This document shows, piece by piece, positions 30,285 through 40,160 of a stretch of 44,651 nt of DNA. Position 1 is the first letter of the stretch. The number at the start of each line of letters is the position of its first letter. The notes beneath the pieces are model-generated. The model was not told the origin of the DNA. It did no database searches and saw nothing but the letters and a program-made list of their open reading frames with translations. Source of the stretch: a virus; IMG/VR virus record IMGVR_UViG_3300046721_000156, positions 1 through 44,651 of that record, one strand, 5' to 3'. The translations under genes were made by a program, and so were the position numbers.

Positions 30285-30332
30285 CCACTTGACAAAACAC
30301 TTTTAACCTGATATACTGGGTAATGGACTTGA
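30271..30332 (+). repeat. Two direct repeats (ATATACTGGGT..T..ACTTGA) 40 bp apart
   Basis: ATATACTGGG starts at 30271 and again at 30311. Each copy continues with a similar T/A-rich tract and ACTTGA. The first copy supplies the TTGACA -35 box of the promoter and the second its TATACT -10 box, so repeat and promoter are interleaved. Forty bp is close to four helical turns, compatible with a protein binding both copies on one face. Confidence 0.7.
30289..30317 (+). promoter_or_regulatory. Sigma70-type promoter before the gp15-like gene
   Basis: TTGACA at 30289-30294, a 17-bp spacer, and TATACT at 30312-30317: six of six and five of six consensus matches. It lies 43 bp before ATG 30360. It would raise expression of the two largest ejection-protein genes and implies host RNA polymerase. 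Confidence 0.85.
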
Positions 30333-30359: not shown

Positions 30360-32585
30360 ATGGCGATTGTACAACCGAACGCACCACAAGACAGCAGCCA
30401 GCTTCCGGCACAAGGAATAGCACCCGGAGCGGGCGCGCCTTCAATCTTGGCGGGCCTCCCCGGCCAGCAACAGCCTGCGCCAGAGCAAGGCGCTTTGGAG
30501 CAGATGGTCTCCGGCTATTTGAAGCACATCACCACGATTGCCGACCAATCCGATTTGACCAAGAAGACCAATGCTCAAGTGGCTGCGTCTCAAGCGGCCG
30601 CAAACAAGCCAGTGGTTGAGGGCCAACCAGCGGCTGCACCCCGCCCCGGCTCCTTCGGTGACAAACTGTCCAGCGCGGTAAACGCGTGGGGCTCCGACGC
30701 GGCGCATGCTACCGACCGTCCGGGCGGATGGTTGAGCGGTATCGCAAACACATTGAACGCTCGCGAGATGAGAATGGCTCAAGAGCAGAAGGACCAAGCG
30801 TTGCTCGCGAAGACACAAGCCGAGACAGTCATGTTGCACCGCAACGCGTATCTTCAAGAACTCCCAATCCGAGAAGGGATGTACAAGGCCAACGAAGATT
30901 ACGTCGGCACCAAGCGTTTGAACCACGACGTGACCGAAGACATTACTCATGACGAGTTGATGAAGCGCTCCAAGGAAAAGGATTTCGCGGCCAAGTATTT
31001 GGTGCGCGCGACCGGCGAAGAGCCAGTATTGGGCGCAGATGGTATGCCGACCAAGGACAAGAACGGCATCCCGGTTACGATACCGAAGTACGCGATCATC
31101 ACCAGAGCCACGAAAGACGGTCAGCCGGACAACCACACGCTGACTGCAGACAACGCTGCGGAGATGAAGAAGTACCTAGGCAGCGGACTGCCAGCTAACA
31201 CGACCTTGACAGGCCCCCAGTGGGACGCGTTGAACGTACAGTTAGTGAACGCGCGCAACGCTGTCAACACTTTGGAAAACGGAAACGAGAAGCCGTTGTC
31301 GGAAGGGCAGATGAAGTCCATCTCTCCGTACTTGAACGACCCGACCATTCAGTCGGCCATCGCCCACGTACCGGGCAGCCCGTACGCTGGAATCAAGGAA
31401 TATCAGAAGAACGCAGACGACCAGATCGACGCGTTCCAACAGCTTGCGGACAGAGCGAAGGAACAGAAGGACCAAGGGACCTACGATCAAGCGACCGCGA
31501 AGATTTCAGAGATCAGACAGGAACAGAGCAAGGTTGCCCAGTTCGCCGCATCCGGGGCAATCGACCCGAAGCAGATCGCTGCGTACGACAAGAAGAACGA
31601 GGAGCAAGTCGGCTGGATTGACAAGATGTTGCACGACCCGAACGAGATGGCAGGCGAGAAGTCTGTCACCGCGTTGTCCCAGTTGCAGACCGCGCTGGAT
31701 TCTGCGACCGACCCGAAGGTCCGCGTGAAGTTGACGCAGGCCATCGCTACCGCCAAGAACGCGCATCAAGCGTACCGCGACGATTTGGAAGCGAAGGCAA
31801 AGGCCGACCAGATGGCGAAGCAAGGCGACCCGAAGGAAGCTGGCCGATTGTTGGCTGGCGGTTTGTTAACTTTGGATGACTTGAAGACTCGCGGAACGAC
31901 CGCGCAATTCATTCAGCAAGCTACCGACGCAGCCGTCGCTATCGACAAGGATTACAATCCTGCGGACGAGAAGAACTTCGAACACGTAGCTAAGTCTGCC
32001 ACAATGGCAAGATTCTTTGGAGCCAGCCGCTCGATGATGGAGAAGGGCGGAACCACGGATATCGTGTACAACCTAGGCCAGAGAATCCCAGACAATGGTA
32101 TGCCAGTACTGAACAAGCTGGAAGACTGGGCCAAGTTGGCAGCAGGTAAGGGTCCTCTGTCCGGATACGCATCATCTATCTTGGGTCTAGCTGACGACTA
32201 CTCGAAGGTCATGGGCGGCGGTAACGCAACTGACTCCGCTAGAGACCACGCGCTCTCTTTGATGGGCGCGGCCTTGACTAAGGCTCAGCGTCTGGAATCG
32301 CTCCAAGCGTTGTTGGCTGACGTTGGTTCTCAACAACATGGTATGATCGGTAAGAACCGATTCATGCAACGCGAGTACAACGACTTCGAACGTTCGAATT
32401 TGACACCGAAGATCACCCCTCCGGAAGCACCGGCAGCGGGTCAAGGTCAAGCAACCATCGCCCAGCCGAAGGCTGCAGCCGCGAAGCCGACCGGTAAAAA
32501 GGTCGGAGAGAAGTTCACGCAGGGCGGCAACGAATACACTATCACCTCAGTTGACAAGAATGGAAACGTAACGGGAGCAGAGTAA
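30360..32585 (+). CDS. Internal virion protein C-like (T7 gp15 position, 741 aa)
   Basis: ATG 30360 follows AAAGGAACAACTGA; a TTG nine codons upstream is less likely. The protein is almost entirely helical and charged, with coiled-coil stretches (MRMAQEQKDQALLAKTQAE), an Ala/Pro/Gln-rich N-terminus (QPAPEQGALEQMVSG), and a short beta end GNEYTITSVDKNGNVTG. T7 gp15 is a helical core protein of 747 residues forming the ejection tunnel, so length and place agree. Its TAA overlaps the next ATG (TAATG). Confidence 0.75.
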   Translation: MAIVQPNAPQDSSQLPAQGIAPGAGAPSILAGLPGQQQPAPEQGALEQMVSGYLKHITTIADQSDLTKKTNAQVAASQAAANKPVVEGQPAAAPRPGSFGDKLSSAVNAWGSDAAHATDRPGGWLSGIANTLNAREMRMAQEQKDQALLAKTQAETVMLHRNAYLQELPIREGMYKANEDYVGTKRLNHDVTEDITHDELMKRSKEKDFAAKYLVRATGEEPVLGADGMPTKDKNGIPVTIPKYAIITRATKDGQPDNHTLTADNAAEMKKYLGSGLPANTTLTGPQWDALNVQLVNARNAVNTLENGNEKPLSEGQMKSISPYLNDPTIQSAIAHVPGSPYAGIKEYQKNADDQIDAFQQLADRAKEQKDQGTYDQATAKISEIRQEQSKVAQFAASGAIDPKQIAAYDKKNEEQVGWIDKMLHDPNEMAGEKSVTALSQLQTALDSATDPKVRVKLTQAIATAKNAHQAYRDDLEAKAKADQMAKQGDPKEAGRLLAGGLLTLDDLKTRGTTAQFIQQATDAAVAIDKDYNPADEKNFEHVAKSATMARFFGASRSMMEKGGTTDIVYNLGQRIPDNGMPVLNKLEDWAKLAAGKGPLSGYASSILGLADDYSKVMGGGNATDSARDHALSLMGAALTKAQRLESLQALLADVGSQQHGMIGKNRFMQREYNDFERSNLTPKITPPEAPAAGQGQATIAQPKAAAAKPTGKKVGEKFTQGGNEYTITSVDKNGNVTGAE

Positions 32586-35500
32586 TGGCCGACTTTACGC
32601 CAGAAGAGAAGCCGCAAGATATCGGACAAACTGGACCGTCGACCGACATTCAATCGCCTTACCCGGGCGCTACGAAAGTTGAAGATGGTATCGCGTACGA
32701 CGCAGCCGGGAAGCAGCTAGGACCGGTTGACGAGAACACGATGAAGGCTCCGGGCGCTGCGCCTAAGCCGAAGTGGAACCCGGACGCGCCGATGCAGTTC
32801 GCGAACGAGAAGACAGAAGCTGCGGGGAAGCCGAAACCAAAGTGGGACCCGAAGGCTCCGATGCAGTTTGCACCGCCAGCCGCCGAAGAGGGCAATATCG
32901 AGATTCCGGAAGTGAAGCCGGAAGGATTTTGGGGACACATCAAGGCCGCCGTTGCGGGACCGAACACAGCCTTTAATACTCCGGAAGGGGAAGCACACGA
33001 GCAAGAGCGAGAAGGATTGTGGGATATTCTCACCGGAGATATCAAAAAGGGTTTTGGAGAAGTTTGGGACGCGAACAAGATTGACGCAAATCACATCATC
33101 CCGAACTCACCAGTAGAGTGGGCTATCCGCCAATTCGACCCAGACTTCCGCGGTCAAGCCACCAAGGAAGCGCAAGCTGCGTACAAGGAAAAGAATCCGA
33201 ATCCGGGCGAGAAGCCTCTTGTTGACATCGCACAGTTCGTCGACATGAAGAAGCACCCGATTGCGAAGGCATTGACTGAAGTTGCACAAGGTTTCACCTC
33301 TCCAGAAAACGTTGCGATCATGTACGGAACCGGCGGCTTAGGCTTGCTCGGAAAAGTGCCGCAAGCATTCCGCGCGTACCGCGTAACACAGCGGCTAATC
33401 TCTGCGGGATTTGCTTACCAGTCTTTGGAGAGCGCGTACGAACACTCGAAGGCATTCAAGGAAGCGTACGACGCAGGCGACGAGACGAAGGCCGAATACG
33501 AGTTGACACACGCCGTGGCTGCGGGAGTAATCACCGCCCAAGCCGCTACTCACGCTGCGGAGGGGAAGTACAAGGTTGGCGGAAAGACCGTTGAAGTCAA
33601 GCCACTAGTAGAGCCGTCTCCGACCGAGAAGAAGGTTATCGGCGCAGTCACAAACGTAATCGGAAAGGCTGCGGAACCGGCCACCAACTTCGCAAAGGAA
33701 AAACTGCAAGCCGTAACCGACCGTGTCGGTGAGGCCATCGGCAAGACTTCCGATTTCGATACTGCGGTCGGCCGCGTAGCGAACATGATGGGTAAGAAAG
33801 CAGGACCGGAGTTCCTAGAGACGGTCAAGACTGCCAGCGATGACTTGAAAGAGATCATCAACAAGGACACCGCCAACAAGATCAAGGACCCGCAAACTGC
33901 GGCAGATGCGATCACCCAGCACCTGCAATCAGATATCGAAGCGCCTTTGCAGCGCGAAGCTGGCGCTACCAAGGACTCTGTGGAGCCGGTTGTTCCTGAC
34001 TTCGGGAAGAGATTGCGTGAGCGTCTAGACAAGTTCTTCGACGACAACGCAGGCCAGTACGGGAACAACGAGCAAGAAGAAGCGATCAAGCAACGCATCA
34101 TCGACCGCTTGACCCGCAACCACGACCTTGGAAACGGCGTAGTCTTGGACCGCGACCCGAACCTGTACGAGGCGGAGAATGCACGTCGAGGATTGAACAA
34201 GTCGTCCGGAGACGTATTCGAGCACGGCACCACTTCTGGATACCGCGCCGCATCTGCGGAAGCCGCGAACTTCATGCGTGAAGTGATCGACGAGGCTTAC
34301 AAGGCCAAGGGCATCAAGGGAGTACCGGAAGCGCGCGCGAAGGAAGCTGCGCTGATTAAGGTTAAGGAAGCGTTGGAAGCGGCACAAGGCTCTTTCGAGA
34401 AGCAGCAAGGCACTCCTTGGCTTGCGAAGTTGTTCAGCACCGGCAAGCTGCTCGGTATGCTCGGCACGATGGGTGCCCACTTTATGAGCAGCGATGCTCT
34501 CTCGGGCGCGCTGGCTGCGGGGACTATTTGGAAGGGCGTCCATGAAGAGAACGCAACCAACATCGAGAAGAACCTAGACCGTATGAGAGAGTTGGCTGGC
34601 CGTGATAAGAGTGCGACCGCCACAACCCCGGACGTTGGAGGAGCACCTCCTCCGACTCAAGGACCTGCAGGAACAGGTCCGTTCACACCTCGTGGCACCC
34701 CGGAACCGGGAGAAGAAGAGCCACTACCGGCTAACGTGCCGCCTAGACCGGAACCACCGCAACCCGCTACGCGTCCTGCGGTCAACCACAGCATGAACGG
34801 TGTGTTGTCTTCGTACTTCAACCAAGGCAGAACTACCGACCCGGTTGAGTACAAGAACATGGTCGACAAGTTCAACGTCGAGTACGCCAACATGAAGGCC
34901 CAAGTCGTTATGGCGAAGGCGGAAGGGCGAGAACTCACGGAGCAGCAACAGAAGGAGTGGGACCGCGCGAACGTTGTAAACGAGAAGTTGAACAACGAAC
35001 TGACGAAGGAAGACGCTGCGTTAGAGAAGGAAAACCAGAAGCGCCAAGATCAGCACCAGAAAGAATTGAACAAGTGGAACGCGAAGCTGCAGCAAGAGAA
35101 GGCGAAGGCCGCTGCGGAGAAGGAAGCCAACACAGACGCCGAGTCTGCGGCGAAGAAGCAAGCTGAGGCTGAACGCGTGGCCGGAATCTTGGCTGATGAG
35201 CGAATAGCCCACAGCCCGATGATGAAGGCAACCGAACCGGCTACGCCTATCGAGGGTCTGGAAGGGCGCAGTTCGAAGCAAAACCACGAACACGAACACG
35301 GGCATATCGTCGCCGCGACTGCGGAAGGCTTGAACCCGGTAGCGTTCATCACGGACAAACACCCGACCGCAATCGAAGACAACGCTATGGCACAAGTCCA
35401 CACCGACCTTACCGGAATGGAGAGAGGCGGACGTGGTATTAAGCAGCGCGTTATAGCAGCATTGGGCGGAGCGGCGTGGGACGAAGTTCACCACGGGATG

Positions 35501-38500
35501 AAGCTGAGCCGCAATACGGGCGCTGGTTCCGATATCGCATTCGCTCGAAAACTGTTGCGCGAGAAGGCTGGATTGCAGGGAGCCCGACTTGACAAAGTGT
35601 TCGATGCGCTGTATGATATAGCCAAGGAACATGTCTCAAATCCGGAGGCTATCGCGCTGGTACAAGCCAACGCGCCTTTAAGAGAAGCCGGGTTGCACGA
35701 GAATCACCACATGTCCCCGGGACGTATGGAAGAATATGTCAAGAAACTACAGGGAGTATTCAAAAATGGCGAAACACCAACCACCGAAGGAGTTCATGAA
35801 GGGCCTGCCGATGAAGGAGTACGAGGCGGAGAATCCGATGAGCCCGGAGGAAGTGAAGAAGAACGGGCTGGAACTGCTGCAAGTCCACGCGCCGAAGCTG
35901 TACGAACGGGCGATGAAGGCGGCGAAGCCGGAGCAGGACCAGAGCGAGTAAGTCCGAAGTTCAAGGGCGGCACGAACGCAGCCGGTAACGAAGCGACTGC
36001 GCGGAAGGCCACCGCGGAGCAGAAGGTCCAATCTTTGGTCGACGACAACGCTCGACTAAAGGAATTGCTGCGTTCGAACAAAGGCACTCCGGAAGAGCGT
36101 GATGCCGCGCTCCGCCGCATGGAAGAGAACAACACGCTGATTAACGAAGTGGGCAAGGTGGATAAGTTCGACCAAGCTAACCTAATGCAGTCTGACAAGA
36201 TGAACGACGAGATGGAAGATGAGCCTACCGTCATGAGTCGGGCGGACTTCAAAAAGAACGTATTGCACGCCTACGACACTATGCATCAAACACCACAAGC
36301 TGCGGTACGCCGTGTGGTTCAAGAGGCTAAGGCACGAGGTGTAGAGGTTCCAGAAGAGTATTACCGAGACAAGGGCAACCTCCAAGCGCCTCCGGAGCGT
36401 TCAACCGGCGACAAAGAACTAGACGAGAAAATCAGAAAGGGTGGGGCAGTACCCGCAGGTCGAATGGGTCCGCTCGCTATGTTCCACCACCCAGAGACCG
36501 GCAGCACCCTCGCGTTGAAGCCGGAAGATATCACACCTGAGACCGTTAAGGAGCACCTCGGCCACAGCAAGGAAGCATTCACCCAAGGCGACATCCGCAA
36601 CACCGCTCGTGAATACAACGCTGCGCGCAATATGCCGGAAGTCAACCCAGCGCCGGTCATGGAAGACCCACGCATCAACCAGATTGCGGACACATACGAT
36701 AAGTTGGAGCACTCTCCGAACGACCCGAAGGTCAAGGCATCTTACGACGCGTTCAAGAAAGAGTTGGACGATCAGTACGACGCATTAGAGAAGTCCGGAT
36801 TCAAGTTCGACACCTCCAAGGAAGACCCGTATCCATCGTATGAGGCTATGCGGCAGGATATTCTCCGCAACAAGCACCTCACCGCTTGGGAGGGTGCTGC
36901 ACCGCCTGCGGACCACCCGCTGGCTGAGCGCGACCCGAAGACCGGGATGACCTACAATGAAAAGTTCCGACTAGTACATGATGTGTTAGGACATGCCGCA
37001 CATGATGCAGACTTCTCCGGCAACGGCGAAGAGTCTGCGTGGAACTACCACCGCCAGATGTTCTCTCCGGAAGCCCAGCCTGCGTTGGCTGCGGAGACGC
37101 GCGGCCAAGTGGCCTCGTTCACCAAGAACGGAAAGTTCCCAGAGAGTCAGAAGGCCGTGCTGCTACCAGACGAGTTCAACAAACGTCCGGAAGAAATCCC
37201 AGACACGGAAGTCGACAAAGGTAATCTCTCCAAGGCCAAGGCCGTAGAGGGTCTTGATAAGATGCGGGAGAAGTACGGAGAGACAGATGATGCGTCCACA
37301 GCCAGAAACGGCCACATCTTCATCACCCCGGAAGGTAAGTTTGTTGACGTCGGCGATCACTCCGACGCAATCGCAACTCACACTGGATACACGAACGCCA
37401 AGTCTACTCCTCGTTGGGACAACCGTCCAGAGTTTATCAACAAGTCTGGCGCGGTTCGCTCTTACAGCTACAACAGCCGAGGCGGAGAGAATTTATCGTT
37501 CTCGGTTCCAAAGGACGGCGTAAATGAAGCGCAAGCTAACGCTATGCGCCGCGCTGTCAAAGAAGGATTGAGCCGAAACGGAAACTTGATTGTGGAGCGG
37601 GCGGACGTAACCGGCGACACTTACGGAGAGCTAAGTCGAAAGAAAGAGTTCCCGAAGGACGGGGACGTTGATCGAATGCTGCGAGAAATTGGCGCTCATC
37701 CGGGCGGCGGAACAACACCGGAAGGACCGAAGCCGGGCGAGAAGGTTCGCGGCGCGGTCAACACCGAGAATACTGCGGCACAAGCGGCTGCGGAGAATGC
37801 TAACCGTCAGCGTGAAGCCGAGTACAACAAGAACTACACACCGGGCGGACGATTGAAGCTGAACCTAGATAAAGACGATATCAAGCCGGAAAACTTGAAC
37901 GTCGACTTGGAGAAGCACCCCGCTGGTGGGATTGACCCGTTCACCGGCAGCATGGAGAGCAAGCGTTACGGCGTGGAGATTGCGCCGGAACAGCGTGAAG
38001 TGCTCGACCACAAGCCGACCCCGGCGGACTTCCACCGATTCGCGGTGGAGAATATCGACACTTTGAAGCAACACCCAGACGTTAAGATTGGCTGGGACAC
38101 GCTGGGCGGTAAGCCCGAGATGAACATCGGCGTCTCGACCGACAACTTGGACGCTGCGAAGAACATTGGCGCAAAGTTGGACCAGCGTTCGGTTTGGGAC
38201 ACTCAGAAGCAAGAAGAGGTTCCGACCGGCGGCAAGGGAGAGCAGCGCGAGTTCCCTGACTACCCGATGAGTGCGCGTCTTGCGGACCTAGACAAGGGTA
38301 ACCTCACTAAGGACGACGATTTCACTGTTCGGGGAGAAACTGCGAATGTGGGGCCAGCGGAATCACTAACGAACCCAAAACAGTTCCGTGATAAAATACA
38401 AGATGTTTCTACCCTTTCGCCAAGAGAGCAAGTGGCAGAGTTAACAGATATGCTTGATAGAGCGAGACGTAATTATAGTGAATCGACTCGTCAAAAGGCT

Positions 38501-39949
38501 AACTATCTGCGAGATTATTGGAGAGGCAACGTCAACATCGTTAAAGATGCTCTAGAGGCCGCTAGAATTGCCGCAACAGAGCAGAAAAAAGTTGACCAAC
38601 GGCACGCTAGTTTTGTATCGCCCGGTGAGCCGATTCCGTCAAATCCCATCTACCAAGGACCGCGTTCTCCCATCAACAAACAAGCTGCTCTCAATACATA
38701 TTCACCGATAGACCTAGACAAGGGCAACTTGAAGTCTCCCAAGGGCTCCTCGGTTCCTTTGATGGAAGAGCCTTTGGAAGTGGAAGGCACCGGAGAGAAG
38801 GGCCGCATCTCCACGCTGGATGTGGCGCAAGCGTTGAACGAATACAGCAAGGAAAAGAATCCTGCGTTACAGCCGGGCGCTGAACCGGAAGAGATGGTGA
38901 AGCGCGCGAAGAAGATTGCGGAAGACGAGGCCAAGTACCAGATGGCATCCGGCAAGACCGGGACCGCATGGTACACCGACGAGATGAAGGACCACGATAA
39001 GGCGTTGACGGAGGGTCGTCCGGAGTTGTTGACCGGGGAGAATATCGACACTCCGACACCGTGGCCTCACACGGCAAAGTTGAGCATCTTCAAGGCCGCG
39101 GAGGCCATCCTATCTTCCGGCCAGAAGCCATACGGCAACTTTAAGTCTGCCGTGAAGGCTTGGGACGCGTACAACGAGACCGGCGAATTTCCACGCTTGA
39201 ACCCGGCGACTGGAAAGTCGTGGGGTCCTCGCGGAGAGGCTGCGTACGGCAACGCTCTCGATATGTTGAACCATCTCATCAAGGACAAGGGCGAGAAGGG
39301 CGCAGCAGAGTGGCTGCTGAACGACCACCCTGTTTCGGAATTGAAGCAATACAAGCCGAAGGGCGTGAAGGGAGCTAAGAACGATATGCGTCCCGGCGCG
39401 ATCATCCTCGGTGAGAAGCGTGGACCGTTCATGCAAAACCTCCACGGTATCGAGGCCGCGTTCACGGCCGACATGTGGGTATCCCGTACTTGGAACCGTT
39501 GGATGGGTACGATGGAGTTCGGCAAGGACAAAGACGGCGAGATGGAAATCAAGTCCGACTCCCCCCGTAACGGAGCGGAGCGCGACTTGATGAAGAAGTC
39601 GTTCGCGGAGACTGCACAAAAGTTAGGTTTAACGACGTCTTCACTACAAGCCGTCCTCTGGTACTACGAGCAAGCGCTTTACACGCGCCACGGAATACCG
39701 AAGGAATCTTGGTCGTTCCGAGATGCGGCACAACGTGCGATGAAGGAAGCGGCCATGCCTCCGGAGGCGGAGCAAACCGGCTTCAACTTCGGCGCTAACG
39801 AGAAGCCTGCGTCACAAGGCGGGCTAAACTTCAACGCGAAAGAGAAGGGCGGACTCGGCAACTTAGGTAATATCCCAGTCGTGAAGAGCAAGTTCGTAGA
39901 CTTCAACAAGCCTATCGGAGGGGTGGACAAGAGCCCCTTGACAAAGTAA
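32585..39949 (+). CDS. Giant ejection/internal virion protein with M41-like peptidase signature (2454 aa)
   Basis: In the T7 gp16 slot, but about 1100 residues longer than T7 gp16. The N-terminus has two copies of PKWxPxAPMQFA (W64, W87). A zinc-protease signature HEHGH at 903-907 is followed by LGGAAWDE and NTGAGSDIAFA with D983, as in FtsH/M41 peptidases, where the third zinc ligand is that Asp about 77 residues downstream. A second module has HDVLGH (1465-1470), ESAWNYHRQMFSPEA and ETRGQ. A C-terminal module has GPFMQNLHG near 2280 and FTADMWVSRTWNRWMG. DKGNL occurs at 1262, 1544, 1903 and 2045. A transglycosylase motif like that of T7 gp16 was not seen. It is presumably ejected with DNA. 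Residues about 1061-1122 overlap an embedded gene in another frame. Confidence 0.85.
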   Translation: MADFTPEEKPQDIGQTGPSTDIQSPYPGATKVEDGIAYDAAGKQLGPVDENTMKAPGAAPKPKWNPDAPMQFANEKTEAAGKPKPKWDPKAPMQFAPPAAEEGNIEIPEVKPEGFWGHIKAAVAGPNTAFNTPEGEAHEQEREGLWDILTGDIKKGFGEVWDANKIDANHIIPNSPVEWAIRQFDPDFRGQATKEAQAAYKEKNPNPGEKPLVDIAQFVDMKKHPIAKALTEVAQGFTSPENVAIMYGTGGLGLLGKVPQAFRAYRVTQRLISAGFAYQSLESAYEHSKAFKEAYDAGDETKAEYELTHAVAAGVITAQAATHAAEGKYKVGGKTVEVKPLVEPSPTEKKVIGAVTNVIGKAAEPATNFAKEKLQAVTDRVGEAIGKTSDFDTAVGRVANMMGKKAGPEFLETVKTASDDLKEIINKDTANKIKDPQTAADAITQHLQSDIEAPLQREAGATKDSVEPVVPDFGKRLRERLDKFFDDNAGQYGNNEQEEAIKQRIIDRLTRNHDLGNGVVLDRDPNLYEAENARRGLNKSSGDVFEHGTTSGYRAASAEAANFMREVIDEAYKAKGIKGVPEARAKEAALIKVKEALEAAQGSFEKQQGTPWLAKLFSTGKLLGMLGTMGAHFMSSDALSGALAAGTIWKGVHEENATNIEKNLDRMRELAGRDKSATATTPDVGGAPPPTQGPAGTGPFTPRGTPEPGEEEPLPANVPPRPEPPQPATRPAVNHSMNGVLSSYFNQGRTTDPVEYKNMVDKFNVEYANMKAQVVMAKAEGRELTEQQQKEWDRANVVNEKLNNELTKEDAALEKENQKRQDQHQKELNKWNAKLQQEKAKAAAEKEANTDAESAAKKQAEAERVAGILADERIAHSPMMKATEPATPIEGLEGRSSKQNHEHEHGHIVAATAEGLNPVAFITDKHPTAIEDNAMAQVHTDLTGMERGGRGIKQRVIAALGGAAWDEVHHGMKLSRNTGAGSDIAFARKLLREKAGLQGARLDKVFDALYDIAKEHVSNPEAIALVQANAPLREAGLHENHHMSPGRMEEYVKKLQGVFKNGETPTTEGVHEGPADEGVRGGESDEPGGSEEERAGTAASPRAEAVRTGDEGGEAGAGPERVSPKFKGGTNAAGNEATARKATAEQKVQSLVDDNARLKELLRSNKGTPEERDAALRRMEENNTLINEVGKVDKFDQANLMQSDKMNDEMEDEPTVMSRADFKKNVLHAYDTMHQTPQAAVRRVVQEAKARGVEVPEEYYRDKGNLQAPPERSTGDKELDEKIRKGGAVPAGRMGPLAMFHHPETGSTLALKPEDITPETVKEHLGHSKEAFTQGDIRNTAREYNAARNMPEVNPAPVMEDPRINQIADTYDKLEHSPNDPKVKASYDAFKKELDDQYDALEKSGFKFDTSKEDPYPSYEAMRQDILRNKHLTAWEGAAPPADHPLAERDPKTGMTYNEKFRLVHDVLGHAAHDADFSGNGEESAWNYHRQMFSPEAQPALAAETRGQVASFTKNGKFPESQKAVLLPDEFNKRPEEIPDTEVDKGNLSKAKAVEGLDKMREKYGETDDASTARNGHIFITPEGKFVDVGDHSDAIATHTGYTNAKSTPRWDNRPEFINKSGAVRSYSYNSRGGENLSFSVPKDGVNEAQANAMRRAVKEGLSRNGNLIVERADVTGDTYGELSRKKEFPKDGDVDRMLREIGAHPGGGTTPEGPKPGEKVRGAVNTENTAAQAAAENANRQREAEYNKNYTPGGRLKLNLDKDDIKPENLNVDLEKHPAGGIDPFTGSMESKRYGVEIAPEQREVLDHKPTPADFHRFAVENIDTLKQHPDVKIGWDTLGGKPEMNIGVSTDNLDAAKNIGAKLDQRSVWDTQKQEEVPTGGKGEQREFPDYPMSARLADLDKGNLTKDDDFTVRGETANVGPAESLTNPKQFRDKIQDVSTLSPREQVAELTDMLDRARRNYSESTRQKANYLRDYWRGNVNIVKDALEAARIAATEQKKVDQRHASFVSPGEPIPSNPIYQGPRSPINKQAALNTYSPIDLDKGNLKSPKGSSVPLMEEPLEVEGTGEKGRISTLDVAQALNEYSKEKNPALQPGAEPEEMVKRAKKIAEDEAKYQMASGKTGTAWYTDEMKDHDKALTEGRPELLTGENIDTPTPWPHTAKLSIFKAAEAILSSGQKPYGNFKSAVKAWDAYNETGEFPRLNPATGKSWGPRGEAAYGNALDMLNHLIKDKGEKGAAEWLLNDHPVSELKQYKPKGVKGAKNDMRPGAIILGEKRGPFMQNLHGIEAAFTADMWVSRTWNRWMGTMEFGKDKDGEMEIKSDSPRNGAERDLMKKSFAETAQKLGLTTSSLQAVLWYYEQALYTRHGIPKESWSFRDAAQRAMKEAAMPPEAEQTGFNFGANEKPASQGGLNFNAKEKGGLGNLGNIPVVKSKFVDFNKPIGGVDKSPLTK
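35589..35617 (+). promoter_or_regulatory. Consensus promoter inside the giant gene
   Basis: TTGACA at 35589-35594, a 17-bp spacer, and TATGAT at 35612-35617: six of six and five of six consensus matches. The predicted start of transcription is about 140 bp before the ATG of the embedded gene. Its -35 region (CTTGACAAAGTG) resembles those of the promoters at 30289 and 39938 (each TTGACAAA), suggesting one promoter class. Confidence 0.8.
35766..35951 (+). CDS. Embedded overlapping gene in the +1 frame of the ejection protein gene (61 aa)
   Basis: An ATG with AGGGAG nine bases upstream opens a 61-codon frame wholly inside the giant gene. The peptide begins MAKHQPPKEFMKGLPMKEYE, continues with PMSPEEVKKNGLELLQVHAP and a helical KLYERAMKAAKPEQ end. 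Its codons use the GC-ending set of the phage (AAG, CTG, CCG, GCG), while the giant frame here reads a Gly/Glu/Pro low-complexity linker. Together with the upstream consensus promoter this argues for a genuine gene. Function unknown; charged, helical, no membrane span. Confidence 0.7.
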   Translation: MAKHQPPKEFMKGLPMKEYEAENPMSPEEVKKNGLELLQVHAPKLYERAMKAAKPEQDQSE

Positions 39950-39966
39950 CGGTACTGTGGTACCAT
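39938..39966 (+). promoter_or_regulatory. Sigma70-type promoter with internal palindrome
   Basis: TTGACA (39938-39943), a 17-bp spacer, and TACCAT (39961-39966; four of six matches). The spacer and -10 contain the palindrome GGTAC-TGTG-GTACC (39951-39964), which would suit repressor control. The -35 box lies in the last codons of the giant gene. It would drive the 59-aa, 68-aa and glycosyltransferase genes. Confidence 0.65.
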
Positions 39967-39980
39967 AATAAAGAGGTCTT

Positions 39981-40160
39981 ATGAGCGAAAAGAAACTAGG
40001 TCCTTCAGATTTCCAAGCGGAGATTCAGCGGCTCCAAGCTGCGGGTAAACTGCCCCAGCTTCACGAGTTGCTGGGTGCGGTAGCCGACACCAGAAAGGAA
40101 TACGCTCCCAAGATTCTCGACGCTAGAAAACAGGGAGAAGACGATGCCAGCAACGATTAA
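39981..40160 (+). CDS. Small charged helical protein (59 aa)
   Basis: AAAGAGG lies five bases before the ATG. The peptide begins MSEKKLGPSDFQAEIQRLQ and is helical with many charged residues (TRKEYAPKILDARKQGEDD). No membrane segment or motif is seen. It lies at the head of the small operon behind the palindromic promoter, and the next gene starts 17 bases before its stop codon, which suggests coupled translation. Function unknown. Confidence 0.7.
   Translation: MSEKKLGPSDFQAEIQRLQAAGKLPQLHELLGAVADTRKEYAPKILDARKQGEDDASND

Follow-up and report, generated by a model that had tools for sequence, protein, structure and literature searches.

Introduction

Among tailed phages, most of the nested genes known belong to lysis modules. 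Gene E of phiX174 forms an internal overlap within gene D (PMC8227390), and Rz1 of phage lambda is embedded in Rz (PMC6139136, PMC5295617). The locus described in this study resembles both pairs in that a small gene lies wholly within a larger one, in another frame and with its own ribosome site. Unlike phiX174 E and lambda Rz1, which are lysis genes, the small gene has a product with no predicted membrane segment, and it lies behind a peptidase domain of a giant gene, often with its own sigma-70 promoter.

The surrounding gene can be compared with those of polyvalent proteins, whose zincin-like MPTase domains have been predicted to act in self-processing or as effectors (Iyer et al. 2017, PMC5512222). 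As in those proteins, a giant multidomain phage protein carries one or more HExxH peptidase domains, with HEXXXH variants (PMC5512222). The predicted fold here, in distinction, matches FtsH/M41; in a term search, neither FtsH nor overlapping genes turned up in the text of that study. The M41-type fold invites comparison with lambda CIII, a small helical competitive inhibitor of host FtsH (PMC1838920). In both cases a small helical phage polypeptide is tied to an M41-type peptidase, but the peptidase here is phage-encoded and its modelled domain is without the AAA+ part. No family match to CIII was found among the nested proteins, and any inhibitory activity here is putative.

In the RnlAB toxin-antitoxin system, the antitoxin promoter is internal to the upstream coding sequence (PMC5535158). 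A promoter within upstream coding sequence, through which a small partner would be made separately, is shared with the present locus; unlike the nested gene, the RnlAB antitoxin gene lies downstream and is not fully nested, and the present locus is not known to have toxin activity. Each ingredient is thus known separately, namely nested genes, giant-protein peptidases, FtsH inhibitors and internal promoters, whereas their combination as a nested gene, an M41-like domain and an internal promoter was not found reported in the open-access literature.

The giant gene and its M41-like domain

The window, meaning the whole stretch of DNA analysed here, comprises the 44,651 bases of an IMG/VR virus record and contains genes for a terminase, a portal and a major head protein. 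The features under study lie within one giant gene (Table 1), the product of which is likely a virion or polyvalent protein. Residues ~1340–1550 of this product match phrog_3170 together with structural and hypothetical phage proteins. The earlier note had called it an ejection protein, a role that is conjectural. The protein contains a zincin peptidase domain, and its relatives are annotated as structural or hypothetical. The M41-like domain is absent from the known phages that are related to the middle part of the giant protein (L071–L073). The 3′ end of the giant gene is overlapped by a sigma-70-like promoter (39938–39966), downstream of which an unlisted ORF of ~60 aa begins at 39981 (MSEKKLGPSDFQAEIQ...).

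Table 1 Features of the giant gene and of the gene nested within it, in window coordinates.
Feature	Position	Strand	Basis
Giant host gene, 2454 aa, with the M41-like peptidase domain inside	32585..39949	+	ORF list
FtsH/M41-like metallopeptidase domain, giant residues 881-1057	35225..35755	+	Alignment, AlphaFold2, structure matches
HExxH zinc-binding motif (HEHGH)	35291..35305	+	Alignment; position calculated from the ORF
Invariant Glu, likely third zinc ligand (presumed role)	35483..35485	+	Invariant column E87
Putative internal promoter: TTGACA (35589-35594), 17 nt, TATGAT (35612-35617)	35589..35617	+	Consensus match, synonymous null, census
Shine-Dalgarno AGGGAG, 9 nt upstream of ATG 35766	35751..35756	+	Sequence; clear Shine-Dalgarno at 18/19 homologous starts
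Giant-frame stretch across the nested gene, Gly/Glu/Ala/Pro-rich linker	35763..35951	+	Composition, GC3 0.30, poor conservation in distant pairs
Nested gene, +1 frame, 61 aa: MAKHQPPKEFMKGLPMKEYEAENPMSPEEVKKNGLELLQVHAPKLYERAMKAAKPEQDQSE	35766..35951	+	Conserved at 19/19 homologous sites, synonymous suppression, AlphaFold2 helices

Alignment of 12 peptidase sequences identified HExxH and GxAxxE as invariant, such that the domain combines the zinc-binding motif with a downstream acidic residue, Glu, as the likely third ligand. AlphaFold2 modelled the domain with a pLDDT of 93.9 and a pTM of 0.90; the best PDB structure matches of the domain were FtsH proteases (TM ~0.6, E 3e-4), and its best viral matches were M41 proteins. 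The giant protein gave no AAA+ ATPase family match, and we therefore refer to an M41-like domain and not to an FtsH. The domain is presumably proteolytic. Identity between the zincins of different giant genes falls to ~26%. In L060 the motif reads HEAGGH, an HEXXXH variant of the kind described for polyvalent-protein peptidases (PMC5512222). In the first of two M41-like copies in L068 it reads HDLAH, with the catalytic Glu lost, and this copy is therefore probably inactive.

A nested reading frame behind every copy of the domain found

Within the long ORF, the earlier note had described AGGGAG, a 9-nt spacer, an ATG and a 61-codon +1 frame, all of which were found where it placed them. Direct scans with single local proteins yielded no close relatives; the terminase and the C-terminal region of the giant protein were therefore used to reach relatives, followed by profile scans. 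Among the records obtained by the first route, the 61-aa protein had two matches, with identities of 61% and 52%, and each of them lay inside a diverged giant gene. In three further relatives of the giant gene, precisely this site was occupied by a +1 ORF of another kind. Profile scans added L053, L060, L063 and L065, then L066–L069, and then L070. A tblastn search of 50,697 phage records returned no relative of the nested protein or of the peptidase.

The census comprises 19 copies of the M41-like domain in giant genes of 15 phage-like genomes, counting the second copies in L053, L063, L068 and L070. Each copy is followed by an ATG-initiated +1 ORF, 39–67 aa in length. A clear Shine-Dalgarno sequence is located 6–10 nt ahead of the ATG in 18 of the 19, the exception being the first copy of L068, where only a weak site is present. 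The nested start falls between −5 and +13 nt from the end of the peptidase domain in the 18 copies that passed the Shine-Dalgarno filter; the 19th ORF was identified by eye. The search for homologues without the ATG, the ribosome site or the reading frame, which the earlier note had named as a possible refutation, thus did not refute the nested gene, the weak ribosome site of L068 being the only deviation. Giant genes with two M41-like domains were observed in L053 (6926 onward), L063 (5479 onward), L070 (~5536 onward) and L068, and behind each of the duplicated domains lies a separate nested +1 ORF. L070 (CABMCB010000010.1), the only match from a genome collection, was assigned to the bin 'uncultured archaeon LFW-28'; since its giant gene is of the same type, it is probably a mis-binned phage contig.

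The start, ribosome site and stop of the second frame thus all lie within the giant gene and are kept in relatives. An open +1 frame by itself proves little, as it was retained in 84% of synonymous randomisations that kept the long protein fixed; a chance ORF was rejected on account of the conservation in relatives, and the presence of a nested ORF behind all 19 protease-like domain copies found argues for a real gene. A programmed frameshift could instead carry translation of the giant gene into the nested frame and yield a shortened giant protein with a different tail, not a free small protein; the shared strand and the +1 offset would allow this. Roughly half of the copies, however, have a +1 stop 1–5 codons upstream of the ATG, similarity begins at the ATG, and the Shine-Dalgarno sites are correctly spaced; programmed frameshifting was rejected on these grounds as highly improbable.

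Selection on the nested frame

Synonymous-site conservation, which the earlier note had named as a check, revealed strong suppression that was limited to the overlap. In pairs that include the window, long-frame third positions differed at a frequency of 0.55–0.60 upstream vs 0.21–0.29 within the overlap. The proportion of identical four-fold sites was 0.89 in the overlap and 0.36 outside it for the window vs G017, and 0.93 and 0.36 for the window vs G002; the corresponding values in three other pairs were 0.83/0.45, 0.75/0.38 and 0.92/0.41. Among near relatives, the nested protein was 59% identical where the long frame was ~50% identical. When synonymous codons were redrawn with both long proteins fixed, the similarity of the nested frame in near relatives exceeded the expectation imposed by the long frame by 7–10 SD, z values that are somewhat inflated by codons retained by descent and, in family III of the nested proteins, shifted upward because the nested frame was what the alignment had been optimised for. 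The control is therefore the contrast along the gene: in a +1-frame scan of the window against G017 covering 2012 codons, z was 10.9 at the overlap and 3.9 at the next-highest position. The nested-frame excess of 8–11 SD has no comparable peak elsewhere in that frame. Selection at the protein level thus acts on the nested frame beyond what the first frame imposes. Conversely, conservation of the long frame beyond that of the nested frame reached z 3–7 in near relatives and was hardly detectable in many family-III pairs that are distant from each other, which is how a linker should behave.

Since synonymous suppression does not name a frame, the conserved stretch might be a DNA or RNA element, such as a regulatory structure, instead of coding sequence; indeed, other frames reached z 4.7–8.1 where the +1 frame reached 10.9 and 8.3. 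The +1 frame nevertheless ranked first in all five pairs tested, a frame with ATG and stop is open at all 19 sites, distant family-III members share the protein and little of the linker, and no Rfam match was found. Together with the codon-position composition described below, these observations led us to reject a noncoding element, which we regard as scarcely credible.

The earlier note had remarked by eye that the nested frame has the GC-ending codons of the phage, and quantification bore this out, with a GC3 of 0.87 in the nested frame vs 0.30 in the long frame within the overlap. The GC1/2/3 values of the nested frame are 0.66/0.30/0.87, and those of the long gene upstream are 0.64/0.37/0.65. 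In all 19 copies, the codon-position GC pattern of the phage was found in the nested frame and not in the long frame. The long frame over the nested gene is, as had been noted, a linker, with Gly/Glu/Ala/Pro/Ser/Asp making up 74% of its residues. Because the composition of the nested frame is ordinary and that of the long frame abnormal, the pattern suggests that the long frame was threaded across a pre-existing small gene, which fits the earlier impression of a long protein adapted to the short gene. The same composition could also result simply from a tighter constraint on the small frame. Collectively, these comparative sequence data make it almost certain that the nested gene is real.

A probable internal promoter ahead of the nested gene

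The TTGACA-17-TATGAT element that had been noted within the coding sequence is present, and its −10 hexamer ends 148 nt ahead of the nested ATG. It agrees with the consensus at 11 of 12 positions, where ~0.18 such sites would be expected by chance on both strands of the window; the only other 11/12-type site in the window is at 30289–30317, between ORFs. Against a synonymous-codon null, the window promoter gave p 0.001–0.007. Using an approximate sigma-70 matrix applied to no more than 220 nt upstream, we found a promoter score of at least 12 ahead of 11 of the 19 nested ORFs vs none of 3,790 control windows in the same giant genes, which overlap and lie away from the nested starts. Sites resembling the consensus, above the chance level and shared by homologues are thus found at these positions. 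The distance from promoter to ATG is ~90–185 nt (nine at 92–110 nt, G000 at 148 nt and L066 at 184 nt). Of the 17 copies to which the synonymous null was applied, 8 gave p < 0.05; several copies have a protein context in common (Leu-Thr-Lys-Pro...Asp-Ile) and are not independent. Other strong promoters on that strand are mostly located at giant-gene 3′ ends, in line with this promoter type being the phages' own.

The nested gene could also be real and yet translated only from the giant mRNA, in which case the TTGACA-TATGAT of the window would be a coincidence of codons (Leu-Asp-Lys...Tyr-Asp). A strong promoter is absent from 8 of the 19 copies, including the closest relatives of the window; those of family I without one (G017, G002, the first copies of L053 and L070, and L060) all have a Shine-Dalgarno sequence. 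The position of the window promoter is non-homologous and unlike that in any relative, and the position differs in L066 as well. Translation from the giant mRNA alone is nonetheless unlikely, given the enrichment of the same promoter type before nested ORFs over interior windows, the synonymous null for the window and the placement of this promoter type at the giant-gene end by these phages. Judged from the sequence comparisons, the promoter class is real and the copy in the window is a lineage-specific instance. It is probable that the nested gene in the window has its own promoter, and we hold with good confidence the joint proposition of a nested gene that possesses one. Where such a promoter is present, as in the window and roughly half of the copies, transcription would be separable from the rest of the giant operon.

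Nested products and their possible partner

The nested proteins fall into three families, designated I (the window type), II and III (TTEEL...SPEEKAKLRExLxKEL). Families I and III are weakly similar (hhalign P 34%), and no similarity was detected between family II and either of them. Searches of Pfam, PHROGs and PDB sequences with the nested proteins returned nothing usable and no known family. For the nested protein of the window, AlphaFold2 predicted three helices with moderate confidence (pLDDT 76), and the predicted model contains no membrane segment.

The nested family tracks the peptidase subfamily, even within one gene, as in L053, L063 and L070, each of which has two different families; the case for a partner role draws mainly on this correspondence. 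The degenerate L068 copy (HDLAH) retains a nested ORF of 65 aa, with a weak ribosome site and no promoter. The link between nested protein and peptidase therefore requires no active enzyme, and a chaperone and an inhibitor are both possible; the L068 case speaks against a protein that simply inhibits an active enzyme. By inference, the nested protein may function as a small helical inhibitor or chaperone of the peptidase domain, and we put forward only tentatively, at somewhat below an even chance, that it is a partner of the adjacent peptidase.

The nested gene may equally be unrelated to the peptidase and encode an independent small phage protein, for example for host takeover or virion assembly, a reading to which we give the same tentative weight. 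Its own promoter would permit separate timing, the degenerate L068 copy keeps its nested ORF, and the three nested families differ widely in sequence. Independence accounts less readily for a nested ORF behind each of the 19 peptidase copies, and for duplicated pairs in which each copy has its own nested ORF of a family matching the peptidase subfamily.

Discussion

A protein-coding gene almost certainly lies in the +1 frame of the giant gene, directly behind its M41-like domain. The nested transcript would arise from its own sigma-70-type promoter in the window and roughly half of the copies; in copies without a promoter, the nested gene would be read from the giant mRNA. The product of 39–67 aa may be soluble and helical, bind the neighbouring peptidase domain, and be made independently of the giant protein, early or in excess, in a manner comparable to that of some antitoxins with internal promoters. 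The giant frame would pass over the small gene as a tolerant linker.

A broader proposal, which we consider possible but rather doubtful, is that of a mobile two-part cassette consisting of the M41-like domain and an out-of-frame gene for a dedicated small regulator with a host-type promoter. Such a cassette would make the regulator available ahead of the peptidase or in larger amounts than it. It would have been duplicated inside giant phage genes, with the giant frame read across the already existing small gene.

The nested genes would constitute a hidden gene family that accompanies a peptidase domain across giant genes that have diverged strongly, copied along with it and often with its own promoter. 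Gene finders that accept one frame per locus, and ordinary annotation, would miss such a gene. The locus would furthermore represent a clean natural case of a long protein threaded across another gene, and the nested protein is a concrete candidate for restraining the peptidases of giant phage proteins that are injected or assembled.
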